Origin: a virus | DNA length: 24,302 nucleotides | Virus record (IMG/VR): IMGVR_UViG_3300028666_000105 | Location: 1-24,302 of that record | Reading direction: 5' to 3' (one strand) | Shown: piece after piece, positions 10,118 to 12,668 of the stretch | How positions within the stretch are numbered: position 1 is the stretch's first letter | How the letters are laid out: every line of letters begins with the position of its first letter | Made by a program: the position numbers and the translations under genes | The notes under the pieces: model-generated | Database searches by the model: none | Told to the model about the DNA's origin: nothing | The model's input: the letters and a program-made list of their open reading frames with translations, nothing else

Positions 10118-10376
10118 ACAGAGATTGCAGCAGATAATTGACGAGTCAAGTCTAAAGAAATCAGCTATTTGGCCTACTTGTTGCCCGTGGAGTTTGGCGA
10201 CTTCGGGGGAGATTTTGGCGATGGCCCAAGAGCTACACGACATAAAAACAAAAGAAGAGGCACGGGTAAAGGCCGTGGTAGAGGAGTTAACCAATGACAC
10301 TGTTATTCAGCCTGACAGCGAAGGACTTCGAGTTCCAGACGTTCTGCACGGGGGGCAAGGGGGGTCAACATCGTAA
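10107..10376 (+). CDS. Hypothetical protein, 89 aa
   Basis: ATG at 10107 follows GGGAGGG at 6 nt and overlaps the preceding gene by 11 nt. Residues 1-60 are helical, with a Cys pair (CC) and Trp/Pro in the middle. The last 28 codons overlap the start of the release-factor-like gene in another frame, so the C-terminal composition (Gly-rich) is shaped by that frame. Unknown function. Confidence 0.6.
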   Translation: MVTKQRLQQIIDESSLKKSAIWPTCCPWSLATSGEILAMAQELHDIKTKEEARVKAVVEELTNDTVIQPDSEGLRVPDVLHGGQGGSTS

Positions 10377-10620
10377 CGCTAAACAGAATGGAGTCAGGTG
10401 CATACATCCCGAATCTGGTGCAAGGGCGGAACACCGTGACGGTAGAGATCAGTTCCGGAATAAGCAAGAAGCTTTTAGAAAATGTGCTGAAACTCCGGAG
10501 TTCAAAGCGTGGCATAAAGTCGAAACCCTACGAAGACTCGGCAAGCTCCGAGAAGTAGATCGGGCAGTTGACGAACAAATGAGGGAAGAGAATCTCAAGA
10601 TAGAGTACTTGACTCCCTAA
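10294..10620 (+). CDS. Stand-alone GGQ release-factor-like protein, 108 aa
   Basis: The protein is a class I release-factor catalytic domain with its hallmark GGKGGQHRNAKQNGVR. GGQ is residues 23-25, followed by the conserved N-x-x-x-x-GVR and H-PSG-type segment (C36-I-H-PESG). In the RF1/RF2/ArfB family this loop hydrolyses peptidyl-tRNA in the ribosomal A site. It lacks the codon-reading domain 2 of RF1 and RF2, and its C-terminus is mixed rather than the Lys/Arg-rich tail of ArfB, so its targeting is unclear. ATG at 10294 has GAGGAG upstream and overlaps the previous gene by 83 nt. It may rescue stalled ribosomes or help termination. Such small proteins occur in other phages. Confidence 0.85.
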   Translation: MTLLFSLTAKDFEFQTFCTGGKGGQHRNAKQNGVRCIHPESGARAEHRDGRDQFRNKQEAFRKCAETPEFKAWHKVETLRRLGKLREVDRAVDEQMREENLKIEYLTP

Positions 10621-12006: not shown

Positions 12007-12015
12007 TGGTATAAT
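12007..12015 (+). promoter_or_regulatory. Extended -10 promoter (TGGTATAAT) before the tRNA block
   Basis: No convincing -35 lies at 16-18 nt. ATG (12022) follows 6 nt after TATAAT, as at 9363 and 10643. It is well placed to transcribe the tRNA block. Confidence 0.6.
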
Positions 12016-12021
12016 GGTATT

Positions 12022-12072
12022 ATGACTTACAAAAACATCGACCGTCCAGCACCCGCCGCGCCGAAAGCGTAG
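12022..12072 (+). CDS. Possible 16-codon leaderless peptide ahead of the tRNA block
   Basis: ATG at 12022 aligns with two other leaderless starts. The frame ends with TAG after 16 codons (Ala/Pro-rich), 19 nt before tRNA-Pro. It may be chance or a leader peptide. Confidence 0.25.
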   Translation: MTYKNIDRPAPAAPKA

Positions 12073-12173: not shown

Positions 12174-12248
12174 GGGTTGGTAGTTCTAATGGGAAAACAC
12201 CCGGCTTGCACCCGGAAGTTGAGAGTTCGAATCTCTCCCGATCCACCA
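12174..12248 (+). tRNA. tRNA-Ala (UGC)
   Basis: The acceptor has the Ala hallmark G3-U70, with A73 and encoded CCA. Anticodon loop CTTGCAC; one C-A mismatch at 27-43. T arm GAGAG/CTCTC. Confidence 0.9.
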
Positions 12249-12256
12249 AAGGAAAA

Positions 12257-12589
12257 ATGACGTAGATTAAGTATTTCTATATTTTCGTACGGCAAGATAT
12301 AAGTCTTGCCCAGCAGATCATCCAGACTAACCATGCGACATTTGATATGTCGGCTGAGTATGCACATGAGGGGGAACCCCCTTATATAGTCTTGATAGGA
12401 GTACCCGATAGTCAGGGACTCCAAGATGTAATTAAGTATCTGAAAGATAACGAGATACCACACGTTGCTTTCGAAGACAATGACTTTGACTTTAAGATTG
12501 GCGGGGTTGTTACCCTTCCACTTAGAGAAGAACAAAGAGAGTTGTTAAGACATTACCCGCTCTGGAGGACTCCAGAAAGTTCGCAATAA
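12257..12589 (+). CDS. Peptidyl-tRNA hydrolase 2 (Pth2)-like protein with amber codon 3
   Basis: From ATT at 12266 the frame encodes about 107 residues that follow the Pth2 layout: first strand and helix (KYFYIFVRQDISLAQQIIQT then NHA), strand PPYIVLIG, helix QGLQDVIKYLKDNEIP, then HVAFEDNDFDFKIGGVVTL. Pth2 frees tRNA from stalled peptidyl-tRNA. The nearest ATG (12257) has AAAGGA just upstream but reads ATG-ACG-TAG-ATT-AAG, with the amber at 12263-12265. The next in-frame ATG (12347) would remove the first strand and helix. So the protein needs amber readthrough, an ATT start, or is damaged. The tRNA with anticodon CUA lies 328 nt downstream of the TAG. The family call is by pattern only. Confidence 0.7.
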
Positions 12590-12593
12590 GTTT

Positions 12594-12668
12594 GCGCGGG
12601 TAGCTCAGTGGTAGAGCAGCCGATTCTACTCCGGCTTGTCGTGGGTTCGAGTCCCACTCCGCGCTCCA
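12594..12668 (+). tRNA. tRNA with anticodon CUA (amber suppressor type)
   Basis: All arms are present: acceptor GCGCGGG/TCCGCGC, D stem GCTC/GAGC, anticodon stem GCCGA/CCGGC (one A-C mismatch at 31-39), T arm GTGGG/CCCAC, T73 and encoded CCA. The loop TTCTACT has U33 and CUA at 34-36, reading UAG. C37 is unusual. G1-C72, C2-G71, G3-C70 and U73 match glycine identity elements, so it may derive from tRNA-Gly; the charging amino acid is not proven. Confidence 0.75.

Follow-up and report, generated by a model that had tools for sequence, protein, structure and literature searches.

RF2 is autoregulated by a frameshift in the cellular prfB gene, which carries an early in-frame UGA that is passed by a +1 frameshift. 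In phages, the reading of stop codons as sense is known from the studies of genetic code 15, which concern wholly recoded genomes (PMC13037316, PMC9523058, PMC10879173). CUA suppressor tRNAs have also been reported, without identified targets, from the jumbo phages XacN1 (PMC5852040) and RsoM2USA (PMC8504454); the authors of XacN1 obtained no target from the read-through of amber-terminated ORFs (PMC5852040). Pth2 genes of jumbo phages, belonging to the Pth2 family (PF01981), were described by Iyer et al. (2021, PMC7824862). No description of an amber start of phage pth2 was found in the open-access literature searched.

The window analysed here, meaning the whole stretch of 24,302 nucleotides (24.3 kb), comes from IMG/VR as a linear fragment; it belongs to a tailed phage whose portal is SU10-like. 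Its sequence reads AAAGGAAAA-ATG(12257)-ACG-TAG(12263)-ATT(12266)-AAG-TAT, and 107 codons stay open from 12266 to a TAA at 12587-12589. An earlier note, made from the letters of the window, had pointed to this ATG-ACG-TAG-ATT-AAG start and to a CUA tRNA nearby; both were borne out, the first with an intact Pth2-fold frame behind the TAG and the second by ARAGORN. The earliest ATG, GTG or TTG downstream of the TAG is codon 28 (12347), which lies within the Pth2 domain. The elements of the locus are:

12174 to 12248, plus strand: tRNA-Ala(UGC), called by ARAGORN, with its 3' end 8 nt upstream of the pth2 ATG.
12249 to 12253, plus strand: Shine-Dalgarno-like AAGGA upstream of the ATG at 12257, from the sequence.
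12257 to 12262, plus strand: two-codon leader ATG-ACG, that is the start and one sense codon, from the sequence, a layout also seen in relatives.
12263 to 12265, plus strand: in-frame amber TAG, next base A (purine), a TAG in 45/45 distinct TAG-bearing relatives.
12266 to 12589, plus strand: Pth2-fold domain, 107 codons and TAA, from AF2, Foldseek and alignment.
12594 to 12668, plus strand: CUA-anticodon tRNA, candidate amber suppressor, called by ARAGORN, 4 nt past the pth2 stop.

Since the tRNA-Ala gene ends so close to the pth2 ATG, the processing of its 3' end could form the 5' end of the pth2 mRNA. Further upstream, the stretch 12010-12072 contains a TATAAT followed by a 16-codon ORF (ATG 12022) whose TAG end lies directly before a tRNA-Pro gene, and the tRNA/pth2 array may be transcribed from this TATAAT. 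On the plus strand of the same fragment, approximately 1.6 kb upstream of pth2, the gene at 10294-10620 encodes a protein that carries the GGQ motif and matches the RF-1 domain (Pfam PF00472, E 1.1e-10); it is a stand-alone protein of the release-factor-like or ribosome-rescue type.

We consider it likely, with good confidence, that the pth2 amber is a lock opened by the CUA tRNA of the phage; its decoding and the conditional expression are what we infer from comparative sequence data. The ribosome would start at the ATG at 12257, read one sense codon and reach the UAG, where RF1 would normally terminate after two residues and leave little or no Pth2. Once transcribed, matured and charged, the phage CUA tRNA would compete with RF1 at a UAG followed by a suppression-favouring purine, and full-length Pth2 would result. 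The Pth2 enzyme is therefore probably made, under this mechanism, only where the CUA tRNA works.

The AF2 model of the window Pth2 has a pLDDT of 89.7 and a pTM of 0.84, and 14 of the 14 PDB matches of Foldseek at E<=0.001 are Pth2-family structures (including 3erj, 2zv3, 1xty, and 1q7s), with TM of approximately 0.6-0.74. The Pfam PTH2 profile matches seven of nine relatives (best 1.9e-6) and does not match the window sequence; the pT24 protein reaches 32.1 bits at a cut-off of 23. R9, D11, Q20, H23, and A24 are invariant in 40 aligned sequences. These phage proteins lack the Gly-Lys loop seen in the solved Pth2 sequence with which they were aligned, so their hydrolase activity is putative.

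The early TAG is widespread in related phages. The first viral relatives found, with proteins 50% identical, have ATG-ACG-TAG-ATC at the same position. When 63 TAG-bearing related phage genes are clustered, a 90% identity threshold gives 45 clusters and a 70% threshold 24, and the stop ahead of the domain is TAG in 63/63 genes and in 45/45 clusters, with neither TAA nor TGA (0 each). The leader, including the ATG, is two codons long in 25 genes, three in 11, and four in 3, followed by lengths of 5, 8, 8, 9, and 12, and there is one GTG-start gene (n=45). For instance, pth2 starts with ATG-ACT-TAG in ME3, ATG-CTG-TAG in Arash, ATG-GCT-CAC-TAG in Kaldavass and XbC2, ATG-GCA-CAA-TAG in CBB and GAP32, and ATG-ACG-CAC-TAG in SNUABM_19 and BF; XacN1 and RAS14 have ATG-AAG-TAG before an HD-Pth2 fusion, and pT24 has ATG-AAA-TAG before a Pth2-HD fusion. 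An equivalent ATG...TAG start of pth2 is present in huge phages of 462-735 kb, and the majority of 80 metagenomic loci share the early TAG. The hosts or sources include Acinetobacter, Salmonella, Cronobacter, Erwinia, Xanthomonas, Stenotrophomonas, and Tenacibaculum, in addition to the huge phages of ~460-735 kb. The TAG and the preceding ATG recur at the same site in relatives at 26-50% protein identity, a recurrence that goes beyond chance. The alignment that the earlier note had proposed as a check thus keeps the TAG, and the ATG-AAG at 12266 that it had named as the opposite outcome was not encountered in relatives.

In a tree of 75 domain sequences, in which many forks are unresolved, TAG genes extend over most of the family and TAG-free groups stand at several places. 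In RaK2, K64-1, Hallingskeid, S-CBWM1, and several metagenomic groups, which are TAG-free, a normal start lies between the preceding stop and the domain. At the DNA level, a similarity search returned tRNA matches only, and a scan of genome contigs with the GAP32 protein gave no match. The string ATGACGTAGAT was considered as a separate conserved DNA motif and rejected: it was found at one site in the window and one in L001, in both cases at the gene, and the leader codons differ in other relatives. Two further starts are recorded here as observations. The pth2 of a 735-kb phage (L333, LR756501) reads ATG-TCG-TAG-ATT with a second in-frame TAG 33 codons on, and two CUA tRNAs lie ~2.2 kb downstream. 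Mycobacterium phage Cane17 (L334) has GAAGGC-ATG-TAG-GTG-ACA at ~2971-2979 before an annotated Pth gene, with a CUA tRNA 250 bp downstream; its start is ambiguous, the GTG being well spaced from the Shine-Dalgarno, and the gene is common to 193 mycobacteriophage records.

The base after the early TAG is a purine in 43/45 cases and U in 0/45, compared with the ordinary terminal TAGs of GAP32, ME3, XacN1, and BF, which are followed by a purine in 26/68 and by a pyrimidine in 42/68 (U in 37); the difference in purines is significant (Fisher p=1.5e-10). Amber suppressors are known to work best in E. coli with a purine after UAG, and U at this position favours termination. The context of the early TAG is accordingly of the kind predicted to favour suppression over termination.

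CUA tRNAs were found with ARAGORN in 38/45 TAG loci, in 31/45 of them within 5 kb. The 44 CUA tRNAs within 5 kb are all on the pth2 strand, and CUA is the commonest anticodon in this interval, with 44 of 223 tRNAs (20%) and 13 for the next anticodon. The seven further loci (XacN1, RAS14, LR756511, L073, L079, L084, and L036) have a CUA tRNA elsewhere in the record or by a permissive call. It was not found in 7/45 TAG loci, namely L001, L030, L034, L051, two fragments of 8-12 kb, and L130/LR756502; the scan was near-complete for L001 (121 kb), L030 (105 kb), L034 (180 kb), and L051 (149 kb), and L130/LR756502 has only an 83-nt CUA candidate that was not called. Among TAG-bearing genomes, CUA tRNAs make up one of 26 tRNAs in GAP32 and one of five in ME3, and XacN1 has two (320 kb scanned). 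The TAG-free complete genomes contain none, with 0/8 tRNAs in RaK2, 0/7 in Hallingskeid, and 0/36 in S-CBWM1. The association is not two-way, as a CUA tRNA also lies close by in approximately 10 metagenomic relatives without the TAG, so such tRNAs must serve other uses.

The bodies and discriminator bases of 72 CUA tRNAs, judged by eye to be of ordinary bacterial type, vary between phages, and hence the identity of the inserted residue is probably neither fixed nor conserved. Pyrrolysine insertion was discarded, because ARAGORN labels every CUA anticodon as Pyl and the 72 tRNAs look ordinary. The CUA tRNA of the window has the loop TTCTACT with C37, an A31-C39 mismatch that makes the loop effectively 9 nt, and the discriminator U73. 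Its C37 and mismatch are unlike most related CUA tRNAs (A37), and by sequence it may be a weak one. As a separate observation, an identical tRNA abuts pth2 at L001:10320-10395 and L030:5320-5395, two contigs in which a CUA tRNA could not be called. This tRNA is called as Thr(AGT), and its anticodon loop, GCAGTCT, is abnormal and lacks U33.

Amber suppression by the nearby CUA tRNA, one of the readings offered in the earlier note, is strongly favoured by the conserved TAG, the purine context, and the linkage of CUA tRNAs. The alternative that survives best is a sensor of termination strength, in which near-cognate host tRNAs read the UAG when RF1 is limiting, comparable to the RF2 frameshift. 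It would account for the poor-termination context in 43/45 genes and for the seven TAG genes in which a CUA tRNA was not found, and it could be combined with suppression. However, UAG is used exclusively although UAA would sense RF1 too, and CUA tRNAs are enriched beside pth2 and absent from complete TAG-free relatives, which makes this sensor, taken for itself, unlikely.

There is no universal protein neighbour of pth2. An HD-domain hydrolase with the motif HDCGKP (phrog_14850) is the commonest recognisable one; it is located downstream in many loci, and no HD gene is present on the window fragment. HD and Pth2 are fused in both orders, HD-Pth2 in XacN1 and RAS14, and Pth2-HD in pT24, L325, and L328, all of which open with ATG...TAG. 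The HD gene usually has an early amber of its own; in at least 16 distinct loci, it starts with ATG-(1-11 codons)-TAG, such as ATG-CTG-TAG in L033, ATG-ACG-TAG-ATT in L329, and ATG-AAT-ACT-TAG in LR745206. The HD gene of Mimasvirus/Eneladusvirus has a normal start, but its codon 47 is an in-frame TAG, and the frame is highly conserved on either side; this TAG is conserved in CBB, XbC2, Kaldavass, BF, and Erwinia phages, and GAP32_398 and GAP32_399 (record ~290461-291027) are one HD gene that annotators split at it. In ME3, Arash-type phages, L024, L061, and L322, the HD gene has no TAG. The AF2 model of the HD protein has a pLDDT of 92.5, and its closest structures are 3wfp, 3wfr, and 3wfo ("tRNA processing enzyme"; E ~0.01, probability 1.0, TM ~0.6), which we take to be tRNA nucleotidyltransferases. 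NCBIfam gave a weak CCA-enzyme match for the same protein. On these weak matches and the Pth2 fold, both enzymes of the module are plausibly hydrolases that act on tRNA 3' ends. The lock would span two enzymes in most related phages, Pth2 for peptidyl-tRNA ester hydrolysis and an HD hydrolase with a fold weakly closest to a tRNA-processing enzyme.

The HD gene also bears on the proposal, made in the earlier note, of a minigene or drop-off sensor similar to lambda bar, in which ATG-ACG-stop would free dipeptidyl-tRNA, titrate the hydrolase, and sense its supply. The window does have a two-codon ORF, the leaders are mostly of two to three codons, which is the drop-off range, and the product has a peptidyl-tRNA hydrolase fold. 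However, leaders in the family run from 2 to 12 codons, the HD gene is amber-interrupted too, and its amber at codon 47 is beyond the drop-off range. The stop is always TAG in a poor-termination context, although any stop would serve a minigene; the CUA tRNA linkage is left unexplained, and the passing of the stop would still require a mechanism. The minigene sensor is needless and a poor fit, and we regard it as quite improbable.

It is very unlikely that translation starts directly behind the TAG, in this window at ATT, or that ribosomes reinitiate once they have read the two-codon ORF. ATT and ATC are rare but known starts, and the TAG is commonly followed by GTT or ATN. However, the codon at this position varies among relatives (GTT, ATT, ATC, AAC, ACC, AAT, GAT, AAG, GGC, and others) and is often one that could not serve as a start (AAC, AAT, ACC, GAT, AAG, GGC), and the Shine-Dalgarno-like sequence tracks the ATG, preceding it even with leaders of 8-12 codons, so the initiation at ATT considered earlier does not hold.

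General recoding of TAG, the code 15 of crAss-like and Lak phages, would make pth2 one of many such genes and could draw on the CUA tRNAs and on the second in-frame TAG in pth2 of the 735-kb phage. It is given a very low probability, since TAG ends ordinary long ORFs, terminating 3.1% (GAP32), 8.7% (ME3), and 7.4% (XacN1) of ORFs of at least 100 aa, which rules out whole-genome recoding. The use of TAG stops is not clearly depleted, with 5.9% in RaK2 (no CUA tRNA) and 8.7% in ME3 (with a CUA tRNA). The terminase and portal genes of the window have no in-frame TAG, and it is two gene families that have the ambers at their starts. When GAP32 was compared with BF for conserved frames interrupted by a TAG (judged by eye, non-exhaustive), only the pth2 and HD genes were convincing, and a scan of TAG-free loci for further amber-started ORFs found none convincing. 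GAP32 43396 (ATG ATT TAG) was rejected as a third amber gene, as a GTG with AGGA upstream gives it a normal start and BF has ATG there. GAP32 311451 (ATG CTA TAG) is a weak amber-start candidate.

The pairwise dN/dS of the pth2 frame is 0.07-0.24, with dS up to saturation. In the first 28 codons after the TAG, a region that in many relatives precedes the first internal start, pN (0.02-0.30) is lower than pS in every pair. The substitution pattern indicates that the frame behind the TAG is under purifying selection. Most TAG genes have no ATG, GTG or TTG between the TAG and the conserved domain, and the TAG-free relatives have one. Phage pth2 shows these marks of programmed read-through: the in-frame stop is conserved, so is the frame that follows, and in most genes an alternative start is lacking. 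A dead gene or a sequencing error, the former also raised in the earlier note and suggested by annotators having skipped or truncated the gene, has a negligible probability given these dN/dS values and the recurrence of this TAG in numerous isolates and contigs of independent origin.

The purpose of the proposed lock could be (a) timing, with no enzyme until the phage tRNAs exist, comparable to the synthetic suppressor-tRNA loop (PMC7969014); (b) homeostasis, in which read-through and poor termination stall peptidyl-tRNA and the same condition switches on the clearing enzymes, in principle akin to the RF2 frameshift; or (c) negative feedback on the suppressor tRNA. Most likely, the purpose would be a matched response: suppressor activity, or termination by RF1 that is too weak, leads to read-through and stalled peptidyl-tRNA, and the clearing enzymes are switched on by the same event; the lock would also block expression before the phage tRNAs are there. 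In six loci (L001, L026, L030, L031, L034, and L036), the pth2 frame runs without a stop codon up to an abutting tRNA or tRNA-like gene, which is a CUA tRNA in L031 and L036; RNase P/tRNA processing would then leave a nonstop pth2 mRNA, a hint of the homeostasis option. More tentatively, and at somewhat less than even probability, the CUA tRNA and the amber-locked Pth2/CCA-enzyme-like HD pair may form, in giant phages of many hosts, a natural suppressor-tRNA circuit that acts on tRNA ends, answers suppressor activity or failing termination with enzymes for the clearance or recycling of peptidyl-tRNA, and so serves as a feedback sensor of the termination state, with some members locked at both ends (no stop, tRNA abutting).

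If the proposed lock exists, phages of very different hosts, of up to 735 kb in size, would have conserved a natural amber switch on a single module of tRNA-metabolism enzymes. Gene callers mis-start or miss amber-start genes and so overlook the proposed lock: the genes of GAP32, CBB, Kaldavass, XbC2, ME3, and pT24 are annotated from internal starts, and the copies of Erwinia and Serratia phages are unannotated. PHROG 34073 and 14850 (77 and 270 positions) appear to be built on products truncated by such amber-caused wrong starts.

Compared with known systems, the phage proteins share the fold of the jumbo-phage Pth2 family, with Pfam PTH2 matches in relatives (PF01981, PMC7824862), and differ from it in being diverged and without the Gly-Lys loop of the aligned homologue. 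The nonstop mRNA predicted for the six pth2 loci is similar to that of ArfA. Like the RF2 frameshift, phage pth2 has an early in-frame stop in the gene of a factor of the end of translation, and its expression would hang on decoding there; unlike it, pth2 has a UAG, an unchanged frame, and a putative suppressor tRNA. In the code-15 crAss-like, Lak, and some jumbo phages, a phage CUA tRNA likewise reads UAG as sense and timing control was proposed (PMC9523058, PMC10879173, PMC13037316), but TAG occurs there in many genes, whereas here the code is standard and TAG is N-terminal in one two-gene module. The synthetic coherent feed-forward loop with a suppressor tRNA (Ho et al., 2020, PMC7969014) similarly couples an amber gene to a co-regulated suppressor tRNA for tight conditional expression; that one was engineered, whereas the phage lock would be natural. 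Lastly, in comparison with the CUA tRNAs reported from XacN1 and RsoM2USA, XacN1 itself has this module, and its HD-Pth2 gene behind ATG-AAG-TAG is a candidate target, which offers a concrete and conserved candidate for the CUA tRNAs of standard-code phages, XacN1 included.
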